Positions 1,669 through 49,079 of a stretch of 64,000 nt of DNA are shown piece after piece. The DNA is from Bacteroidota bacterium (GTDB taxonomy: Bacteria; Bacteroidota; Ignavibacteria; Palsa-1295), in contig JAFDZW010000005.1 in assembly GCA_018266755.1 (NCBI GenBank), forward strand, positions 558,001 through 622,000, in the 5' to 3' direction. The notes under the pieces are model-generated. The model worked only from the letters and a program-made list of their open reading frames with translations. It ran no database searches and was not told where the DNA came from. Each line of letters opens with the position of its first letter. Position 1 is the stretch's first letter. Both the position numbers and the translations under genes were made by a program.

Positions 1669-2733
1669 ATGACTGACATCCGCTTCCTGCCATACGAACG
1701 AGCCCACGAAATCGCAGCCGACGAGTTGATCGTCTGCGACTGCTACTACCATCGCGGGCTTAACCTCACACACCTCTACAGCGAACGTGTCCCGCCACCC
1801 TATCGCGCGAACACGAGCACCGAGACAGGGCTGAACTGGCTCGCAGACAAACGCAGCAACAAACCCGGCGCAACGGCACACTACGTCACCTGCAATCATT
1901 GGGATATCGATGGCATGCTCTCGGTCTGGTCTGTGCTGAATCCAGACCTTGCGCTCGCGAACCGCGAGCTGCTCGTCGCGGCTGCGCATCTCGGCGACTT
2001 TCGCGAGTTCGATCATCGCAGCGCACTCAGCCTCGATGCACTGAAGCTCTGCTGCATTCTCAATCGTGTCGAAGCCGACGAGTTCTGCCTGCCATTTGGC
2101 GACCTCAACGATGCGACGATGGAGTTCGAGGTCTCGGCACAGAAGTTTGAATACTTCCTTCCCCGCTTCGCCGACTGGCTTCGCGATCTCGATGCGTTCG
2201 AACCACTCTGGAGACCGGAATACGACGACGTGATGCGCGACATCGCGGCCATTGAGGCGGGCGAGGTCGCGATCGACGAGATCGCTGCCCCTGCGATCAG
2301 TGTGGTCAAGACCAACCGTCCGCTGCATTACTATGCGATCTTCTCACATGTGCGAGGCGGAGCGGTACTGACCGAAATCAGTGAACCGCACTACATCGAA
2401 TTCGAGTACCGATACGAGACTGCTGTTGGCCGCAATGACAAGACGGTCATGGAGCGATGCGATCTCTCGGACGTTGCAACTGCGCTCAACCGCAACGAGA
2501 GCGCACCGGGAGTCCGCTGGGTCTTCGACAACATCAACGAAGGAGGCTCGATGCTTCGGCCTGAGTATTCGAACAAGCCTCTGAGCCGCGAGGACCGCTA
2601 CCAGAGCCTGGGGTATCGTCTTAAGAACGGACTTGCCCCCTCGACGACGATCGACGCCTCCGCTGTTCTCAAGCTGATCGTGCAGGAGTACGAAAAACAA
2701 AAGGAGCGTACACCGTCGGTGTACGCTCCTTGA
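1669..2733 (+). CDS. DUF6687-like protein
   Basis: 354 residues, soluble, no signal peptide. The stretch [20 protein letters not shown] (around residues 72-91) resembles the N-H-x-D-x-DG-x-x-S-V motif I associate with the DUF6687 family and recalls the D-x-DG phosphoesterase motif of DHH proteins. A metal-dependent hydrolase role is possible but is inference. Divergent from pyrH (57-nt shared promoter region) and convergent with tsf. Its last ten codons contain the hairpin that terminates tsf transcription on the other strand. Confidence 0.75.
2691..2731 (-). terminator. Intrinsic terminator of tsf, inside the convergent CDS
   Basis: On the minus strand, a 12-bp perfect stem (GGAGCGTACACC with its complement, 3-nt loop) is followed by TTTTGTTTTTC. 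The DNA also encodes the last residues ([10 protein letters not shown]) of the plus-strand gene, so the stem is constrained both as RNA and as protein-coding DNA. Confidence 0.9.
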
Positions 2734-2753
2734 AATAGAAGTTCGATTCGAAC

Positions 2754-3626
2754 TTACGCGGCTGCTTCTGTGGTATGGTGATGTCCCTCACCGAGCTGCA
2801 TGCGAACGTAACCGGTGACGGTCACGCCGTTGCCGGCTTCCTTCAAGAGATCGGTGATCGTCTTGGAAGCGTCTTTGATGAAGCTCTGCTCGAGGAGCGT
2901 ATTCTCCTGATAGAACTTATCCATCTTGCCGCCGAGGATCTTCTCGATGATCTCGTCCTTCTTGCCCTCGTTCTTGAGCTGGGTACGGAAGATGTCCATC
3001 TCCTTCTCAATCGTCGTGGCATCGACGGCAGAGCGGTCGAGCGCAAGGGGGTTCATCGCAGCGACCTGCATCGCGATGTCGCGGCCGAGCGGCAAGCCCT
3101 TCTCAGGGTCGATGCCCTTGAGGGCAACAAGCACGCCGAGCTTTGCACCGGGGTGAATGTAGCTGGCCACAACGCCGTCCTTCGTGTCGACGAGTTCGAA
3201 CCGACGTGCTTCGATCTTCTCGCCGATACGACCGGTCTGCTCACCAACACCTTCGGCGATGCTGATACCGTTCGACATCTTCGTCATCAGGAATTCCTCG
3301 TGCGAGTTCGGGCTGGCCGTGAGTGCGGCATTCGCCACATCCTGTGCGAACGCGACGAACGACTCGTTGCGAGCGACGAAGTCGGTCTCGGAATTCACTT
3401 CGGCGATCACGGCCTTGGACTTATCGTCGCTGACGGCTGTGACGATCACGCCTTCTTTTGCGACGCGGTCGGCGCGCTTGGCGGCGCTGGCAGCACCCTT
3501 CTTGCGAAGGATCTCGATCGCCTGCTCTTCGTTACCGTTCGCCTCTTCGAGGGCTTTCTTACAATCGGCCATACCTGCGCCGGTACGGTCGCGCAATTTC
3601 TTTACTAATTCTGCTGAGATTGCCAT
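2754..3626 (-). CDS. tsf: Elongation factor Ts
   Basis: 290 residues. Nucleotide exchange factor for EF-Tu. The N-terminal UBA-like part with the LRDRTGAGMADCKKAL signature and the SETDFVARN motif, whose TDFV residues contact the EF-Tu G domain, are both present. ATG at 3626. Lies downstream of rpsB as in most bacteria, but a strong hairpin terminator separates the two genes, so tsf expression depends on readthrough or an own promoter in the 112-nt gap. Confidence 0.97.
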   Translation of the reverse strand: MAISAELVKKLRDRTGAGMADCKKALEEANGNEEQAIEILRKKGAASAAKRADRVAKEGVIVTAVSDDKSKAVIAEVNSETDFVARNESFVAFAQDVANAALTASPNSHEEFLMTKMSNGISIAEGVGEQTGRIGEKIEARRFELVDTKDGVVASYIHPGAKLGVLVALKGIDPEKGLPLGRDIAMQVAAMNPLALDRSAVDATTIEKEMDIFRTQLKNEGKKDEIIEKILGGKMDKFYQENTLLEQSFIKDASKTITDLLKEAGNGVTVTGYVRMQLGEGHHHTTEAAA

Positions 3627-36511: not shown

Positions 36512-37066
36512 TTATGATTTTGATTCTCCAAGCAGAAGTGTTTGAAGGTCTTTCACGCGGTTCAGCCATCCGTCGAGGAAGCGTTCGAGCCCACGGTTGC
36601 GGGTGCACAGCTGCGCGTAATGGGCTGAACGGGCACGTAGGAGTGATGCAACGAGCATGTTCTGTCCGAACTCGTCGATCTCGTTGTTCACGGCAACGAT
36701 CGACTTCGGACCGAGAATGCCGTCGGCGTCGACGTCCACAAGGTTCTGCAAGGACCGCACGGCCGCGCCGACGCCGCAGTTCGCGGCGAAGTCGAACAGG
36801 GCCGTTGCGAGCTTGTCGGGAAGCTGATCACAACGGGATGCAATCCAATACGACGCATAGTAAATTGCCCGCAGCTCGTCATCCGTGATCTGACGTACCG
36901 ATTGCTCGGGAAGATTCTGATGAAAGCGCCATGTGGAATAGACCTCCTGCGTGATGCCCTTCATCGTAGCGCCGCCGGGATCCTTCGGGTCGTTCGACCA
37001 TCCGCCTTCCCACTTCAGAGTGAAGGCGAGCGAGTCGAGGAATATCTGAGGATAGGTTAGTGCCAT
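36512..37066 (-). CDS. GH108-type endolysin
   Basis: 184 residues. LKWEGGWSNDPKDPGGATMK (catalytic Glu20 in the E-G-G-x-x-x-D-P-x-D-x-G-G motif) defines the glycoside hydrolase 108 family of phage muramidases. C-terminal half holds ALFDFAANCGVGAAVRSLQN and a peptidoglycan-binding-3-like segment. No signal peptide, so release needs a holin. Overlaps the upstream small membrane protein gene by 10 nt. Confidence 0.92.
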   Translation of the reverse strand: MALTYPQIFLDSLAFTLKWEGGWSNDPKDPGGATMKGITQEVYSTWRFHQNLPEQSVRQITDDELRAIYYASYWIASRCDQLPDKLATALFDFAANCGVGAAVRSLQNLVDVDADGILGPKSIVAVNNEIDEFGQNMLVASLLRARSAHYAQLCTRNRGLERFLDGWLNRVKDLQTLLLGESKS

Positions 37067-40800: not shown

Positions 40801-41665
40801 ATCCGAGATCGACGCGGTCAAAGAGCTTCACGTCATCGGGATAAGAATATGCAGCAAGATTGGTACGATCGATATCCCCACCGATCGCTTTGAACGATGA
40901 TGTAGGAGTAAGATTGTTCTTCAAGAAATCTACCGTGCCCACTACTCCATTAATACCGAATCCGGTATGAAACTGCTTGCGCTCGCCGTCAACAATGTCC
41001 GAAGCCGTGAAGCCGGGGATCGGGTAGCTCTTAACCTTGCCGGAGTTCGTACCGGTGACGAGCTCGGCAACGACGTGCTGATCGGTACTGCCGAGGCCTG
41101 TCGTTGTCCGGAATGTCCATTCAGAAAGCGTCAGTGCCGAGAAATCACCGGGGCTTTCCATGTAGTACACCTCGTCAGTAATATTACTGAAGTCGATTGA
41201 ACCGCTGTAATATACCGGATTGGTCTTGAATGAGTAGTCGGCATTGATATCCAACCTGCACACCCAATAGCGGGCCTTTGGATCGTTAAAGAAACTGCCA
41301 AGGAACGTCGTGCCGGCTGCCTTGAAATCCATGTCTCCGGTTGGCGCGCCGTTGATCGTTCCGTGAGCCTTGAAACTATCGAACATCGAGAAGTCCCACG
41401 AGAGCGGGACCATATTGCCGTCCTCGTTCGAGCGTTCGATCGCCGTGTCGCCCCAATGAGCTCCGTCGAAATACTGATTCGGGTTGCCGACAATAAGCGT
41501 ATCGTCCGGATGTGTTTCGGGCCATGCATGCGGCGAAGACCGGCCACCGCCAGAGACATTCGACCAGTCGTGGGTACCATCGTCGCGCATCAACCGGAGT
41601 TCGCAAATACCGTCGCTGATCAACAGGCCGCGAAAGACGATGCAATTGGGATTCGGCAGTGGCAT
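37880..41665 (-). CDS. Giant tail-tip or host-recognition protein
   Basis: 1261 residues, downstream of the tape measure gene, where siphoviruses place distal tail, hub and tip genes. N-terminal 600 residues look like a tail-hub/baseplate module (FGVNPMQYQFLKVFGGYGGS, KTFNRNFAKTCVHVKHRG); a Gly/Ser-rich linker near 880 (SGSVGGSNIGSSTSGGGGSS) precedes a C-terminal fibre-type region with beta repeats and NLSGSTGPWQATTVASLASA. Fusion of hub and fibre functions in one chain is inferred from length and position. Confidence 0.75.
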   Translation of the reverse strand: MPLPNPNCIVFRGLLISDGICELRLMRDDGTHDWSNVSGGGRSSPHAWPETHPDDTLIVGNPNQYFDGAHWGDTAIERSNEDGNMVPLSWDFSMFDSFKAHGTINGAPTGDMDFKAAGTTFLGSFFNDPKARYWVCRLDINADYSFKTNPVYYSGSIDFSNITDEVYYMESPGDFSALTLSEWTFRTTTGLGSTDQHVVAELVTGTNSGKVKSYPIPGFTASDIVDGERKQFHTGFGINGVVGTVDFLKNNLTPTSSFKAIGGDIDRTNLAAYSYPDDVKLFDRVDLGFTDTVKPVNPYGVPFGFCAITRTSIIQKIADISCFTFDPSDVERVCDAYGHSFASPSGSDEWSLTLISGTQLSDFMHLNYNVVFGVNPMQYQFLKVFGGYGGSATSAATDAWAADSERGTVLEHRKIVGATNTSPIIFETDEPHGLKYAGIPVFVLNVGGNTSANIHLQGTKTALIVDDYHFTLADGAGNPINGSGTFTTDGDLYYAGDGFYQWEKQGGYQWSMSNAAVLKDQALRFRCSMLWGYNQSGDDFGKPKLKFKRIGRTTETAPTAMQNAIHVQKPKTFNRNFAKTCVHVKHRGSETGVYCPRKPRTGEDVIELTYVGGTRKWGELSGYKADNFIYDNSVDISEQHDCVYYFKEKADSDGGILYQPSKGWLIGSYDYIKRSPEPSIWPSAFDKAIIGDIGDADNATHTDKAGEYNIVYEEFSGTLKLKDGSTITSGGLTKDSTNIREQNFSDLSSTALIMANALLIDETEKEYTVKSFRNDSGEISGMFEYFKLQGKNRYGSTVYFGVTKLYLNEKTGVTRFRVVEVPSDESVINDLTIISDNGGTSGSVGGSNIGSSTSGGGGSSVGSGKNSLLVNPANNIRNQTAPANGVETDLWMYSLALNKTKINVASATRLDEIGLVDVNGIGYSVIEFYNATNNFDLTGAIDSSYGSSGSNVAPRLVMFRNGTSKVMTIKHHDTHSSAWMRFDLANYHGTAGKVQPGGWAICRYDLETNYWQIISLYPYPADSIDSATGLAGSDVGDGSQMWSIGAGAMPIDRIVNTPTGYVIANLSGSTGPWQATTVASLASALGIPTGVFLLSTSADQVVQYTAKNKTSIFRQRSGDDASAVMIEGQDSSSASLWWLDGAGSLHIMGHIDARILTIDIWAAGYLSGSKITGLDPQGCRNIILTDSSAGVGPYDLCGIANGEDGYELNILDNTGKGIKWSPNDTAEGTTANRIASTVIRIFQNQDFYYDGNASRWRPRNV

Positions 41666-44600
41666 TAGTAGTTCGGGAAAGTGTTGTTGATCACTCGATT
41701 CTGTGACGACTTATTGCTCTGACGCATCATATCAGATGGAATGGCGGTATCGCGGCCGTTCGAATATGCCTGATGCAGCGCGTCGAACTTCGACTCCAAC
41801 CGCGAGAAATCGTATCCGCCGCCGCCATGCGAGCCTCCACCTCCGCGCATATAGGCAAGCGATTCTGCATGCGGGATCACGCGATAGCTCGAGCGAGGCT
41901 GCATAATCTCCGGACCGCGTTCGCCGACCCAGAACGGTTGATTCGTTGGTGTGTTATCGGTGCCTTCCGCGAACCCGAACAGGCCGCCAAGAATACTGCT
42001 GGCAATGCCGCCACCGGGGATGAGTGCGAGCATAGACTTCGCAAGACCGCCGACCATCGACGTCGCCGCGGCTTTTTGTTCCGCTGCGCTGTGAGCACCC
42101 ATGAACTGCCGCAGGCCGCGAGCACCCGTGACGGCAGCATCAGCGCCGAATTGTCCGTCTTTACTGTTCGCTGAAGGAGCGGTAGGGGCGCTAGCCTCTT
42201 GCGCCTTGCCTGTCTCCGTAACCTGGGCGGCAGTCTCTTTCGACGATTCACCGAGCGTCTTGAGGTGTTGCGTGGCATCCTTCGCTGCATCTCCGAGGTC
42301 TTTCAGGTGAGTCGGCTCTTCGGCGTACGCACTTTCAATACCAAGGTGAGCTACACGTTCGGCGGACGGCAGCAATTCCGATGCTGCATTAAACTCCGTA
42401 TGGTGAAGGGATCCATGGACCTGGCCCGACGCATAACCAAGCACCGACGGAAGCAACACATTCGCACCGCCGGATAGATAACGCCCCTCCTGAAGTTGGT
42501 CAACACCTTCGTTGATCGAACCAAGGTTCATTAAATTCGAAGCGCCTACCGCTCCGGCACCTGCCGCCTCAAGCCCCTGTATGCCGGTCGTATAACCGAC
42601 CATATTCCCGGCGAAGCGAGGAATAGAGAACCCTTCGTGCCCACTGCCGAGAAACTTGAACAGATCGTCGCGGTTTTGTTCATATCCATGTGCAATCGAC
42701 GGCAGGACGCCGCCTATTCCCTTGTTCATCAATTCGTACCCGCCAACCGCTGTGTTGGCGAATATCTCTGCTATGCCTGCCGGGAATTGCGCGAAAGACT
42801 TACCTACATCGGCCATTCCGACACTTTCGCGTGTTCGCTCCTCGTCACGTTTATCTTCATTGCGCCGACGACGCTCTTCCTGCTTCGCTTTATTGAGCTC
42901 TTTTTGGAATTCCAGTTGACGACGAACAGCTTCTTCTTTTTCCTTCTCACCTTTGGTGAGCTCGGCGGCATCGTCTTTCGATACGTGTGGATAGTTGAGT
43001 ATGTAATCGGGGAAACCCGTGCCGTCCTTGAAGCCTGGCATTCCGGCGGACTGAAACAGGCCGACCATCGAGTTTGGGATGATCGTGCCCGGAACGTGGT
43101 CGATGCGGATCTCCGGGCCTTCCTCGCCAACGAGATACGGTGTGCCTACGGGCGTCGAACCGCCTTTCGCGCGTTTCGGGATATTACCGAGGATACCAAA
43201 GATGGAGTTCAGCGGTCCAAGACCGGGGATGGCACTGAACGGACCGCTATCCGCCGTGTCTGCTTTCTTCGCGAAGAGCGAATCAACTAGCTTTTCAACG
43301 GCCTTGCTCGCCGCAGTTGCTATCGCATTCCGAACGATGGACAGGAACAGATCGGCAAACCAATTCTTCGCGTCTGCCGTCTTCTGCTGCAAGGGCTGAA
43401 AGAACTGCTGCTCGAATGCGCCGAACATCTGCTGACCGGCGCTCTGGGCGATGGACTCGGCTTCCGAATATTGAGCCTTCCACGCCTTATTGAGAATATC
43501 CGCGCGGTCGCTGATATACTTTTTGGCCTTCTCGGTCAGGATCTCTTCCTTGCCATAATATTGATCCTGTTCGCCCTGCCACCGGATTTCAAGCAATGCG
43601 AGTTCGCGCTTGGTATCATCCGTGATGTTTTCGGCTTTGGCGTTGGCGAGCGTCTTTGCATCGTCAAGGCGCTCTTTCTCTTTATCTCGATCAAGCTGCC
43701 GAAGGTGCTCGGCGTCGGATAGATATTGCTTTTCCCATTCCTTTTGTGCGTCGAGAATTGCTTGTCCTCGGCCTTTTTCCAATGCACCGTAGTCCTGACC
43801 GAATTGCTTGGCTGCCGCGATCTCGGCGTCGTAGTAAAATAGCGTCAGCGCGAGTTTGCGCTTGCGGAATTCGCCTTCTTTGTCAATGATACGGTCATCG
43901 TTCTCAATATCCTGACGGGCCATCTCCGTGTAGTGCGCGAGTTGGTCCTCGGACTCTTTGGTCAGCGCATCGTAGCGAGCCTTGGCGATCTGCTCGGGAG
44001 TCTTCTCGGTGCCGGACTTACCGGAAGACGCGGCTGTCGCTTGCGACGGATCGAATGACGACACCTCAGTGAGCGCGTCGTTGTACTTCTTGATCTCGCC
44101 GCCCATGCGCTTAATTTTGTTCTCGAGCGCAGAGAGTAATTGCTCGGACGCCTCTTTTGACAGACCGCTGGTCTGCCCGCTTTGGATGGAGAGCTTCAGC
44201 CGTGCCGCTTGCTGTTCGAGCAGGGTAATGGAGTCACGCTGACCCGAAAGAGCGGCCATAAAATCATCGTTTGCCGCCTTTGCCTTTTCGGCCATCGCGG
44301 CATCCGTGCCAAGGGCGGATGCGTGTACGGTGACAGATCCCGCTGCCCTTTTGGCGGACTCGGCCTGTTGGTCGATAGCGCTTTTGATCCCTAGCTCGGC
44401 CTCTTCCTCCTTCGTGGTTGTACCTAACAGCAGATCGAGACCTACATCGGCCTTTTCCGCCCATTCACCCACGGACCCTATCCATTTGATGGCCAGTTGG
44501 CCTAGCCGCTCGACTTGGTTTTGACGCCGAATCGATTCTCGTTCTAGTGTCCCGTCTGCGGACGCGATGAATTCGGCCTGGCTCTTGACGAGTTGATTCG

Positions 44601-46116
44601 TGCCAGCAATAGCCCGACCAAACAGGTCCTCTTTGGAAGTCGCCTGCTCCAGGTCTTTCACGAGCGCAGGCATTGACATCCGCAGTCTGCCGAACACTTC
44701 CTTGCCTTCATCGCTATACATTCCTTGCGAAATGCCTCGGATGAATCTGTCGGCGGAAATCTCACCCTCAGTACCGGCGGTCTGTTTTTCAATCGCGGCA
44801 GCCGCCTGCACGATTTGCCTATTCTGTTCGCCTACAAAATGACCGGTGAACGCTGCTATCCGCGACAGCTCCTTCCAGTGGGCTTCGGTTATGCCCAATG
44901 TTTTACCGAAGCGTTCGTAATCCTGAATTGTCTGATTTACATTCGCTCTAGCCTGAGCAAACGTCAACCCTGACATTTGATATGCGCCCTGCAATTGTCG
45001 CGTTACCCGTGCGGATTCTTCACCGAGCTTGACGATCTCGCCGGTTGAAAGCCCGATACCCAATGACGATGCTACGCCGATCAGCTTGCCACTGAATTCA
45101 CCTGATAATTGCTGTCCGATCCCAAAAATGGATTTACCGTTCGAGCCCTCCTTCACATTTCGAATGTGCATCAGGGCATCGATCGTCTCCTTCTCGACTT
45201 GCTTGGCGTTAAGGATGGCCTGCTGCGTCTCTTCGTTGTTATCCTGCTTCAGCGCATTGTTAATCGCCTTAGCTTTCTGACGGTGCTCTTCGAGCAGTAC
45301 CTCGATCTTACGAAGCGAAAGACCTTTGAACTGGGCTTCGAGTTCGGACTGACGACGAAGCGACGCCTCTATAGTTGCAGCCGAACGGTCGGTGCCGTCC
45401 TTCTTGACGACGGATCGAGTAATGATGTCTGCCTTTAACGCTGCGAGCTCGCGGTCCCGATGCGCTTTGTTATCGCGCTCCTCATCGGCTATAGTCTTCC
45501 GATTCTGCTCTAGCTCAAGGCGCTCGCGTTCTTTGTAGAAATCAACGAACTGCTTGCTTCGTGGAGGGACCGTCGATCCGCTCGTCAATTCGTCAACGCG
45601 AGCCTTGGCCTGTGCCCGGAGACGTTCACGACGTGAATTCTCTTCCTTCTCGGCTTCCTGTGCACGTCGCTCGCGGTCTTTGGAAAGCTGCGTGTCCCCG
45701 GCAAGGATCTCGGCGTTAGTTTGCTTCTCCGACTGAAGGCGTTTCGCACGAAGATCAGCATCGTGCTTATCCCAAGCCGCATTCATCTGAATGCGCTTCG
45801 CCGTTTCGTCGCTGATAATCTTTGTGACGCCACGTTCATGGATTGCTGACCGTTCGGCGTAAGCCTTCGACCGCTCCTCTACTTTCTTGTAGTACCCGGA
45901 TTCCCATGCCTGCCATGATGCCTCTGCTGTATCCTTATGCGATGCTATGCGCTTGTTATTGTTCTGTTGCTCTTGACGAACAATAGCAACGCCCGAGTCC
46001 TGAAACTTGCGGTTGACGGATTGAATGAGTTCATCGATCTGGCCAAGAAACGCATCGGAGTCCTCGGCCGTGAACCCTAGTCCTATCAGTAAGTTATCGG
46101 AGTCGGTCGTTGCCAT
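41665..46116 (-). CDS. Tail tape measure protein
   Basis: 1483 residues. N-terminal half is charged coiled coil (residues about 30-330), the middle contains helical transmembrane-prone segments, and the C-terminal half shows two copies of the tape-measure module GxxxPVGxPYLVGEEGPEI and NQPFWVGERGPEI. By the usual rule of about 1.5 A per residue, tail length would be near 220 nm. TAATG junction with the next gene. Confidence 0.9.
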   Translation of the reverse strand: MATTDSDNLLIGLGFTAEDSDAFLGQIDELIQSVNRKFQDSGVAIVRQEQQNNNKRIASHKDTAEASWQAWESGYYKKVEERSKAYAERSAIHERGVTKIISDETAKRIQMNAAWDKHDADLRAKRLQSEKQTNAEILAGDTQLSKDRERRAQEAEKEENSRRERLRAQAKARVDELTSGSTVPPRSKQFVDFYKERERLELEQNRKTIADEERDNKAHRDRELAALKADIITRSVVKKDGTDRSAATIEASLRRQSELEAQFKGLSLRKIEVLLEEHRQKAKAINNALKQDNNEETQQAILNAKQVEKETIDALMHIRNVKEGSNGKSIFGIGQQLSGEFSGKLIGVASSLGIGLSTGEIVKLGEESARVTRQLQGAYQMSGLTFAQARANVNQTIQDYERFGKTLGITEAHWKELSRIAAFTGHFVGEQNRQIVQAAAAIEKQTAGTEGEISADRFIRGISQGMYSDEGKEVFGRLRMSMPALVKDLEQATSKEDLFGRAIAGTNQLVKSQAEFIASADGTLERESIRRQNQVERLGQLAIKWIGSVGEWAEKADVGLDLLLGTTTKEEEAELGIKSAIDQQAESAKRAAGSVTVHASALGTDAAMAEKAKAANDDFMAALSGQRDSITLLEQQAARLKLSIQSGQTSGLSKEASEQLLSALENKIKRMGGEIKKYNDALTEVSSFDPSQATAASSGKSGTEKTPEQIAKARYDALTKESEDQLAHYTEMARQDIENDDRIIDKEGEFRKRKLALTLFYYDAEIAAAKQFGQDYGALEKGRGQAILDAQKEWEKQYLSDAEHLRQLDRDKEKERLDDAKTLANAKAENITDDTKRELALLEIRWQGEQDQYYGKEEILTEKAKKYISDRADILNKAWKAQYSEAESIAQSAGQQMFGAFEQQFFQPLQQKTADAKNWFADLFLSIVRNAIATAASKAVEKLVDSLFAKKADTADSGPFSAIPGLGPLNSIFGILGNIPKRAKGGSTPVGTPYLVGEEGPEIRIDHVPGTIIPNSMVGLFQSAGMPGFKDGTGFPDYILNYPHVSKDDAAELTKGEKEKEEAVRRQLEFQKELNKAKQEERRRRNEDKRDEERTRESVGMADVGKSFAQFPAGIAEIFANTAVGGYELMNKGIGGVLPSIAHGYEQNRDDLFKFLGSGHEGFSIPRFAGNMVGYTTGIQGLEAAGAGAVGASNLMNLGSINEGVDQLQEGRYLSGGANVLLPSVLGYASGQVHGSLHHTEFNAASELLPSAERVAHLGIESAYAEEPTHLKDLGDAAKDATQHLKTLGESSKETAAQVTETGKAQEASAPTAPSANSKDGQFGADAAVTGARGLRQFMGAHSAAEQKAAATSMVGGLAKSMLALIPGGGIASSILGGLFGFAEGTDNTPTNQPFWVGERGPEIMQPRSSYRVIPHAESLAYMRGGGGSHGGGGYDFSRLESKFDALHQAYSNGRDTAIPSDMMRQSNKSSQNRVINNTFPNY

Positions 46117-46118
46117 TG

Positions 46119-46449
46119 TCAGAGCGGTTTATTCATATTGTCTTCGACCTTCGAACGGATGCGTTCGGAGATCGCGAGATTCGTAAAGAGTGCAAGCTCT
46201 TCCGGATGCGGATCGATGCTGATCAACTGCCGGAAGGCCGTGAATCCGTCTGCCGCTCCGAAGTATCGGATGTAATGACGGTATCGTTCGGGGACATAAT
46301 CGGTGATGGCTTCGAAGCTTCTGGGCTTTCCGTCGCCGTCGAGTTCGAGCTCTCCTTCACGACCTGCCCATTGTTCTCGGAAGGCTCGGTCGATGGCGTC
46401 TTCGGCGTCCCAATGGGGAGTGGCTTCTCGAAGGTATCGATAAAAAAAT
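46119..46449 (-). CDS. -1 frame extension of the tail assembly chaperone (gpGT-like)
   Basis: Open in the -1 frame from the T7 run to TGA at 46119-46121, 2 nt before the tape measure ATG. It encodes about 107 residues (FYRYLREATPHWDAEDAIDR, GDGKPRSFEAITDYVPERYR, LALFTNLAISERIRSKVEDN) and looks like real protein, unlike the Ser/Pro/Thr-rich tail of the 0 frame. There is no start codon of its own near the beginning. A -1 slip would fuse it to the 137 first residues of the upstream frame to give about 244 residues. Confidence 0.8.
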
Positions 46450-46852
46450 CGCGCACGAGTGCCACCTCCTCCTCCGAGAGCTCATCGACGACCGTGAGCG
46501 GATCCGGTGCGTTGCCGACGGGCGTCACCAATACCGAGACGATGGCCCGGAACAGGTACTCGGGGATGAAGTCACGGTAGTACATTGCCGTCTTTCCGTC
46601 GTCCGTCGGCTTGAGGTACGTGATCTGATAGAGCGCGTACAGGAAGGCGCGATTATCGTCGATCATCGCCGAACGGTTGCCGCTGCCGTTGTCATCTTCG
46701 AGCATGCGGCTCATGTGCACTCTCGCGGCTTTGGAGAGTGCGGCCTTCAGCGCGGCGGCGTAGAATCCGCTATATGCTGAGCGGATCTTATACTGATGAC
46801 CGGCAAGCGTGACGGTCGTGAACTTCGGTGTTGGCTTGGTTTCGGTATTCAT
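46223..46852 (-). CDS. Tail assembly chaperone (gpG-like), 0-frame product
   Basis: 209 residues from ATG at 46852 (MNTETKPTPKFTTVTLAGHQ). Helical body (YAAALKAALSKAARVHMSRM, YALYQITYLKPTDDG, EEEVALVRDFFID) ending at the slippery site; the remaining 72 residues are low complexity. Located between the tail tube gene and the tape measure gene, where chaperones with a frameshifted longer form are found. The two forms coat and deliver the tape measure. Confidence 0.8.
   Translation of the reverse strand: MNTETKPTPKFTTVTLAGHQYKIRSAYSGFYAAALKAALSKAARVHMSRMLEDDNGSGNRSAMIDDNRAFLYALYQITYLKPTDDGKTAMYYRDFIPEYLFRAIVSVLVTPVGNAPDPLTVVDELSEEEVALVRDFFIDTFEKPLPIGTPKTPSTEPSENNGQVVKESSNSTATESPEASKPSPIMSPNDTVITSDTSERQTDSRPSGS
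46441..46448 (-). promoter_or_regulatory. Slippery site for -1 frameshifting
   Basis: Minus strand reads GAT TTT TTT ATC in the 0 frame, i.e. a T-TTT-TTT heptamer. A one-base backward slip leads into the long open frame described above. Same place and direction as the lambda G/GT frameshift. Confidence 0.8.
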
Positions 46853-46924: not shown

Positions 46925-47164
46925 TTAGTTCGCAGCGGTCTCGGCCTTCGGCACGGGAGCGGCTTTCGCTTCCGGCTTGTCCTCGACGTAGTTCTCGGCG
47001 AAGTGATCGTTCGAGTATGCCGTGTCCTGCGGCTTGCCCGGTGCATCGAATACGAGCCAGAAGCCCGGTTCGACGATGAGCGCACCGTGCCCGATGGCCC
47101 TCTTTCCTGTGTGCTGCTCGGCGAGGATGGTCTCGCCGGTCGCCTTGTTGCGATACTTTTTCAT
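46925..47164 (-). CDS. Small phage protein after tail tube
   Basis: 79 residues. MKKYRNKATGETILAEQHTG then a compact domain (FWLVFDAPGKPQDTAYSNDH) and a Lys/Ala/Glu-rich tail. Similar short open frames after the tail tube gene occur in many phages. Role unknown. Two nt from the tail tube stop. Confidence 0.7.
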   Translation of the reverse strand: MKKYRNKATGETILAEQHTGKRAIGHGALIVEPGFWLVFDAPGKPQDTAYSNDHFAENYVEDKPEAKAAPVPKAETAAN

Positions 47165-47166
47165 GG

Positions 47167-48147
47167 TTAGTTCGTCCCCCTGTTTTTAATGGCAAGTGTG
47201 TCTGCGTTCGTTACGCCGATATCGATCGCCTCGGTGGCACCCGACGTCTCGGTGACGTTCAGGCAGGTCTGTCCCTTCACCTCGAAGTCGATGATATGAT
47301 CATCGTCGGCCTTGGTGATGGACATTTTCGACGGGACTGTCGGCAGACTGATCTTTCGACCGTCGGCGAGCGTGGCAAGGATCGCAACGCCGGCACGAGC
47401 GTCGGTCGTCCAGGCCTTGATGTTCGACGCACCGACGGACTTCGACTTGCCCTTGAGGGACCAATCGAACATCGAATGCGTGTATCTGTTGCGGGTGTCC
47501 TTGTCGTATTTGTCCGACGACTTGAGCGTGAAGTTCATGTCGAGCATCGCGCCTTCGAGCGCTGCGCCGGCGGCGTTCGTGAACTGGAACGACTGGAAGT
47601 TGCCCGGTACGTCCGTGGTCAGGTCGTAACCGCCCGCACTCATGCCGATTGTTCCGGTGCCCGCGCCGCCGGTCGTCGCAGCGACAGCATCTGCCATCCA
47701 GTCAAGCTCGTCGTCATTGACCTGACCGCTGAACATGGCTGCGAGCTTCGACATCGTCACGGTGTGCGAGTATTCGAACGCCGGACCGAGGTTCGTCGAA
47801 CCATTCGGTGTTGCGGGCGTGGAGTCGTTGATGAAGTACCAATAGTCGCCGTCGGCCATTTGCAGCTTGGCATCGACCAACCCGTTCTTGATCAGCAGAT
47901 ACAGGTTCAGAAGCATCGGCCAGGTGGCGCGAAACGTCTCGTGACGGACCTCGACATTATGGGCATACGGACGATATGCCTTCTGGAAGTCGTCGTTCGT
48001 CACGCTCTCGGTCTTGAACGACCGGAGATAAGCATGCCCGAGGGACAAAGCCTCCGGGCTTGTGAATGCATTGCCGGTGGGCACGACGAGCAAGCTGTTC
48101 ACTCGCTGAGCGCGTCCGGACTTTAACCCTTGGTGTACTGTAGACAT
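47167..48147 (-). CDS. Major tail tube protein
   Basis: 326 residues. Called by position (before the chaperone and tape measure genes) and by features: beta-rich with FSGQVNDDELDWMADAVAAT and SFQFTNAAGAALEGAMLDMN and a C-terminal Ig-like portion (HIIDFEVKGQTCLNVTETSG). Long for a tube protein (most 150-250), consistent with an added outer domain. Shares one base with the upstream GT9 gene. Confidence 0.75.
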   Translation of the reverse strand: MSTVHQGLKSGRAQRVNSLLVVPTGNAFTSPEALSLGHAYLRSFKTESVTNDDFQKAYRPYAHNVEVRHETFRATWPMLLNLYLLIKNGLVDAKLQMADGDYWYFINDSTPATPNGSTNLGPAFEYSHTVTMSKLAAMFSGQVNDDELDWMADAVAATTGGAGTGTIGMSAGGYDLTTDVPGNFQSFQFTNAAGAALEGAMLDMNFTLKSSDKYDKDTRNRYTHSMFDWSLKGKSKSVGASNIKAWTTDARAGVAILATLADGRKISLPTVPSKMSITKADDDHIIDFEVKGQTCLNVTETSGATEAIDIGVTNADTLAIKNRGTN

Positions 48148-49079
48148 TAGCTCTCCTTGTTAGTTAGAAATATGGAAAAACTCGTAAGCAACTCATCGGG
48201 CTTGGCGTCGATCATGCAGCGCGAGTAGTCATCGCAGCGACCGCCCTGATTCCACCCGCGTGAATACCGCTTCGAGCATGGAGCCGTGCAGCCCTTATCG
48301 TTCGGCGCGGACAGCACGACCATGCGCGGCCCACTTGAATACCGGTCATATTGACCGAGGATCGTGAAGGGATCGGAAGGACCGAAGACCGCGAACGTCG
48401 GCACATTAAGGGCCATCGCGACATGAACGATGCCGGTATCGACGCAAAAGACACCACGCGCATTGCCGACTGTCGAAATCAGTTCGGGGAGTGATCCAAA
48501 CATCGTCTGCCCTGCCCCGAGCCAGACCACGCCGTATTCGCGATTGAGACGGCGGTGAATGTATCCGGCAGAGGCCAGGTCGCGCTCGGGCGACGAGGCG
48601 GTCGGCGCATAGATCACCGCGCGTTCATCAATCGATTCATCCACAGCGAAGCCGAGCGCCGTCGGATAGTCAAACGACGGGGGGGCCGTGATGCCGAAAA
48701 ACGATGCGAACAGGTCGGTGAAATTCGTTAAGCCTGCACCGTCAGCCGCGATCTTCTCGTCGAGCGACCATTCGCAGAGCCAGTAGACCGAGCCGAATGT
48801 CGTGAGCGAGTCTTCCGTGAGACCAGGACGAATATTTTCTGCCGGAATGAATTCGCAGCCCGCACGCTCATAAAGCTCTTGCACGAATGGAGTCGCATAG
48901 ACAGTGAGTTCGTAGCCAAGACGTCGGAGTTCATAGATCACGGGCAACGACGCGATGTGATCGCCAAGGCCCACCCACAGATTGTCGTGGCGGGCCATCA
49001 GCAGCAATAGGCGATTCGGATCGCCCGAACCGTCGAAACGGCTGACCTGCCTGCCCGGCGATGTGTAATTCGGCGTCAT
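48147..49079 (-). CDS. GT9-type glycosyltransferase inside phage tail genes
   Basis: 310 residues. GT-B features of family 9: GLGDHIASLPVIYELRRLGY near residue 37 and VFCVDTGIVHVAMALNVPTF then AVFGPSDP. C-terminal Cys pattern GCTAPCSKRY..GGRCDDYSRC resembles bacterial GT9 proteins. It is coupled to its neighbours (1-nt and 4-nt overlaps), so it belongs to the late operon. Possible targets: virion proteins, or host lipopolysaccharide to block superinfection. Distant relative of the two chromosomal GT9 genes. Confidence 0.85.
   Translation of the reverse strand: MTPNYTSPGRQVSRFDGSGDPNRLLLLMARHDNLWVGLGDHIASLPVIYELRRLGYELTVYATPFVQELYERAGCEFIPAENIRPGLTEDSLTTFGSVYWLCEWSLDEKIAADGAGLTNFTDLFASFFGITAPPSFDYPTALGFAVDESIDERAVIYAPTASSPERDLASAGYIHRRLNREYGVVWLGAGQTMFGSLPELISTVGNARGVFCVDTGIVHVAMALNVPTFAVFGPSDPFTILGQYDRYSSGPRMVVLSAPNDKGCTAPCSKRYSRGWNQGGRCDDYSRCMIDAKPDELLTSFSIFLTNKES

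Follow-up and report, generated by a model that had tools for sequence, protein, structure and literature searches.

Tail assembly chaperones of tailed phages

In the G/GT system of phage lambda, the slippery heptamer is G_GGA_AAG. The system is located just before the tape measure gene, the shift is in the −1 direction, and the two products that arise at a canonical heptamer have a common N-terminal part (PMC5009743). The binding partner of the G part is the tape measure protein, and that of the T part is the tube subunit (PMC5009743). Frameshifting as a strategy for tail assembly chaperones persists even where sequence similarity is very low (PMC5009743; PMC10274946), and collections of other dsDNA tailed phages (the Xu et al. 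2004 set and the SEA-PHAGES set) illustrate the same gene order and general strategy.

Here we describe a prophage locus of a Chlorobiota-type bacterium in a stretch of DNA of 64,000 nucleotides, referred to as the window in its full length. It is like lambda G/GT in position, direction, common N-terminal part and use of a canonical heptamer, and like the Xu and SEA-PHAGES sets in gene order and strategy. Unlike lambda, its heptamer is T_TTT_TTT and there is no detectable sequence relation to G/GT. With high confidence, we consider the best explanation of the locus to be a two-product tail assembly chaperone made by lambda G/GT-like −1 programmed ribosomal frameshifting at T_TTT_TTT. The protein family of this chaperone is not recognised by the libraries searched, and the predicted −1 frameshift adds to a known mechanism one more case that the sequence comparisons support well. 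The lambda G/GT arrangement would then persist in Chlorobiota-class prophages without detectable sequence relation to known chaperones. These prophages would gain both an annotatable chaperone and a frameshift; the libraries searched gave no match for their tube and chaperone proteins.

Gene order at the locus

Direct reading of the sequence places the 0-frame gene between a tail-tube-like gene and the tape measure gene, on the minus strand (46223..46852); it opens with an ATG at 46852, and its stop codon ends at 46223. Its putative gpG-like short product has 209 aa, comprising a 137-residue N-terminal part and a 72-residue tail rich in S/T/P/E. The tape measure gene (41665..46116, minus strand, 1483 aa) has its ATG at 46116, and the chaperone gene is directly upstream. 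The tape measure protein matches PHROG 5062 (tail length tape measure, E 3.2e-6) and, weakly, the tape measure of phage P19250A. On the other side, a 326-aa protein (47167..48147, minus strand) is probably the major tail tube protein; because it has no PHROG or Pfam tail match, we infer this identity from its position and its conservation beside the chaperone in relatives. A small gene between the tube-like gene and the chaperone (MKKYRNKATG..., 46925..47161, minus strand) is recorded as an ORF alone. The prophage itself spans about 32000-62500 of the window (minus strand), and encodes HK97-type capsid and portal proteins (PHROG 10, 2662).

The chaperone has no match to a Pfam or PHROG family, and no sequence match in the PDB. 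Neither it nor the tube protein has a match in the viral collections searched: scans of IMG/VR, whether by single proteins or by the alignments A1, A2 and A3, gave no relative, nor did tblastn against the INPHARED phages. AlphaFold models of the putative chaperone are poor (pLDDT 51 and 53), and a Foldseek search with the N-terminal model gave a best E of 0.87, no more than a pLDDT of 51 would lead one to expect.

Frame transition at a slippery heptamer

The minus strand reads GAT TTT TTT in the frame of the short product, so that the T7 run at 46448-46442 is in frame as T_TTT_TTT (46442..46448), exactly where the initial annotation had proposed a frameshift; all of its coordinates proved right. 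Past the heptamer, the 0 frame continues for 72 codons, rich in S/T/P, to the stop ending at 46223. After a slip, the −1 frame runs for 107 codons (46119..46442, minus strand, 107 aa and stop) and closes with a TGA whose last base, 46119, is separated from the tape measure ATG by 2 nt; it would form the gpT-like part of a long product. The predicted fusion has 244 aa, the last 107 residues of which are from the −1 frame. Within the 85 codons over which both frames are open in the window, the T7 run is the sole in-frame X_XXY_YYZ heptamer. Such in-frame sites (Y = A or T) occur at 7 of 7247 positions in neighbouring genes.

Several measures bear on whether the −1 frame is protein coding. Its codon use scores 0.199 log-odds per codon, compared with −0.244 (SD 0.078) for the −1 frames of neighbouring genes and 0.241 (SD 0.076) for their true frames. 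The −1 frame in the window is thus like a real gene in its codon use, more than expected by chance, and the earlier description of a protein-like frame of 107 residues ending 2 nt before the tape measure start agrees with this. When the protein of the 0-frame tail was held fixed and synonymous codons were drawn, the probability of the −1 frame staying open across the overlap was P = 0.03 in the window, and P = 0.05, 0.02, and 0.006 in three relatives. Open length alone is weak evidence, because 10 of the 298 open runs in the −1 frames of other genes are also at least 85 codons long.

Relatives and conservation of the junction

Three diverged relatives were found by profile searches in genomes of the same bacterial class. 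The tube-like neighbour (47167-48147) matched a relative in Chlorobiota bacterium MAG-306 (G043, JAEUSP010000061.1), and a profile built from this pair of tube proteins led on to G012, a genome of the same family, and G001, one of the same genus. A downstream gene of the same architecture is located beside the tube protein in all three genomes. Among GTDB contigs, alignment A1 found none and alignment A2 found MAG-306 alone. A profile of the four fusion sequences recovers the two halves in all four genomes, which supplied its own training sequences, so that this match restates the result and does not extend it; the 221 genomes searched yielded no other member. A tape measure match in G467 was dropped, since by eye it is antisense to an apparent 2-isopropylmalate synthase ORF. 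One relative, locus L015 from the genome of the same genus, has by eye a similar-looking short ORF in the same place as the small gene of the window. It also has, unlike the window, an extra 140-aa ORF without a Pfam match (2464-2886, plus strand) between chaperone and tape measure.

An in-frame slippery heptamer is present at the same aligned position in all four phages: T_TTT_TTT in the window, T_TTT_TTC in L006 from MAG-306 (first base 847), and A_AAT_TTT in both L014 (6815) and L015 (2053). The only other heptamer in the four overlaps is CCCCCCG in L006, which is of an unfavourable type. The comparison with homologous phages that had been suggested for this locus therefore finds a canonical heptamer kept at the same point, and none of the three relatives lacks a slippery run. 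At each of the four sites two adjacent tRNAs could re-pair after moving back by one base, and this is the property that they have in common, rather than a long homopolymer. This distinction is important when considering slippage by RNA polymerase on the T7 run, which would give a mixed mRNA and a frame change that is not ribosomal. The homopolymer in the window would suit such slippage, and UUUUUUU and AAAAAAA are avoided in all frames of E. coli genes, possibly for this cause (PMC4066793). However, AAATTTT and TTTTTTC are poor sites for polymerase slipping, yet keep tandem tRNA re-pairing, and the heptamer is in frame in four of four phages. Ribosomal slippage is favoured because re-pairing, and not a long homopolymer, is the common property, and a transcriptional origin seems very unlikely.

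The same comparison addresses the suggestion that a single fused gene was split by an indel, whether by a homopolymer error in sequencing or assembly or by a genuine mutation as the prophage decays. A T7 homopolymer is the error-prone kind of site, and the prophage of the window comes from a draft assembly in 11 contigs. Against this, three other assemblies change to the −1 frame at the identical point with different heptamers, two of them without a long homopolymer. Furthermore, the virion genes nearby are intact, and the 0-frame tail is open and biased in composition in all four phages. Because four independent assemblies are involved, we regard an indel as highly improbable.

The shifted-frame protein is also conserved. 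The extensions have 107, 122, 97, and 134 aa (window, L006, L014, and L015, respectively), with a [YH]-[IV]-P-x-x-Y segment and a C-terminal part in common. Pairs of extensions give BLASTP E values of 6e-7 to 1e-3 in five of six cases, the other being L006-L014 at 0.09, and on this basis the four extensions are judged homologous. The fusions from the window and L006 give a single BLASTP alignment across the junction (E = 1e-8), in which VALVRDFF|YRYLRE is aligned with NAVADFF|LRDGRE. The N-terminal part of the 0-frame gene in the window can be aligned with the relatives, whereas the 0-frame tails cannot be, their best BLASTP match among the four phages being 0.15. The pattern that would have contradicted the initial annotation, a conserved 0-frame tail beside a −1 frame that is not conserved, is thus the reverse of that found.

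The extension was said to have no start codon of its own, and this holds in all four phages, where the −1 frame has no ATG, GTG, or TTG in the first 177-243 nt counted from where the heptamer starts; the earliest in the window is a TTG, 222 nt past that point. A separate −1 gene with its own start, expressed by reinitiation or from an internal site, is disfavoured because of this gap and seems, like an indel, highly improbable: two separate tail assembly chaperone genes are annotated in some phage genomes (PMC10274946), but here conserved sequence starts well before any start codon and the alignment crosses the junction.

Proposed mechanism

The gene order, the −1 transition, and the presence of the heptamer in four of four phages support the lambda G/GT-like reading of position, direction, and outcome that was originally put forward. 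Under programmed ribosomal frameshifting, most ribosomes would stay in the 0 frame and make the 209-aa gpG-like protein. We infer the slippage itself, its rate, and the binding roles of the products: a minority of ribosomes, through tandem tRNA re-pairing on T_TTT_TTT (46448-46442), would move back by one base and make the 244-aa gpGT-like fusion that ends in the 107 residues of the −1 frame. By analogy with lambda, the N-terminal part common to both products may coat the tape measure protein, and the −1 extension may recruit tail tube subunits. One point against the proposal is that in E. coli the ribosome shifts far less readily on U_UUU_UUU than on A_AAA_AAG (PMC5009743), although in lambda itself low-level shifting suffices.

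Possible stimulators of slippage were considered on both sides of the heptamer. Folding of the 75 nt of downstream RNA gave free energies with z scores, relative to mononucleotide shuffles, of +1.0 in the window and +1.3, −1.7, and −2.6 in the relatives, and no conserved stimulatory RNA structure 3′ of the heptamer was found among the four phages. Upstream in the window, GGAGGAGGAGGT (approx. 46464..46475, minus strand) is located about 15-16 nt from the heptamer, and the 3′ end of the host 16S rRNA has CACCTCCTTT. The GGAGG here is a possible internal Shine-Dalgarno stimulator in the window, with a long spacing; the motif is not conserved in the relatives.

A long dual-coded overlap

The one unusual trait of this family is the length of DNA that is read in two frames. 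The stretch that lies past the heptamer and closes with the 0-frame stop codon measures 219 nt in the window (46223..46441, minus strand), and 231, 126, and 213 nt in the relatives, unlike published averages from slippery site to in-frame stop of 36 nt in the Xu set and 26 nt in the SEA-PHAGES set (PMC10274946). Predictors tuned to short overlaps would miss such an arrangement. For example, one test set held 43 frameshifts in which the slippery site was >51 nt from the in-frame stop, and PRFect recovered only 2 of them (PMC10274946).

The initial annotation described the 0-frame tail as low-complexity Ser/Pro/Thr. The composition is as described, but an excess of S/T/P/E residues means that the tail is probably not a mere leftover. 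In the four phages, the 0-frame tails have S/T/P/E contents of 57, 50, 37, and 50%, and are mostly poor in Arg. Compared with synonymous redraws of the −1 protein, the excess has z = 4.35, 2.99, 2.08, and 2.26, respectively, while the same measure in 174 windows of neighbouring genes has a mean of −0.11, an SD of 1.32, and a maximum of 3.38. Selection appears to act on the composition of the 0-frame tail and not on its sequence, because the excess occurs in the overlap and the measure is negative in all four phages for the part of the extension beyond the 0-frame stop. This is suggestive only, because the test was chosen after the data had been seen and used four sequences that are related to one another, the codon usage of the window serving to score three of these. 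A tentative reading, to which we would give somewhat less than an even chance, is that selection maintains the 0-frame tail as a disordered C-terminal segment, rich in S/T/P/E and with a role of its own, for example in solubility or in release from the tape measure, encoded atop the putative tube-recruiting −1 domain.

Other features of the prophages

The surrounding genes include some further points of interest. A gene for a PF01075 glycosyltransferase of family 9 (heptosyltransferase-like) is located in the virion block in the window (48147-49079, minus strand), in L007 (6946-7941, minus strand), and in L014 (8163-8750, minus strand). It is present in all three phages whose sequence covers that side of the virion block. 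The MAG-306 relative has a gene with a methyltransferase domain (PF13489; L007 2944-3597, minus strand) in the region of tail and head joining. In the window, a probable endolysin with a glycosyl hydrolase 108 domain and a peptidoglycan-binding domain is encoded at 36512-37066 (minus strand).
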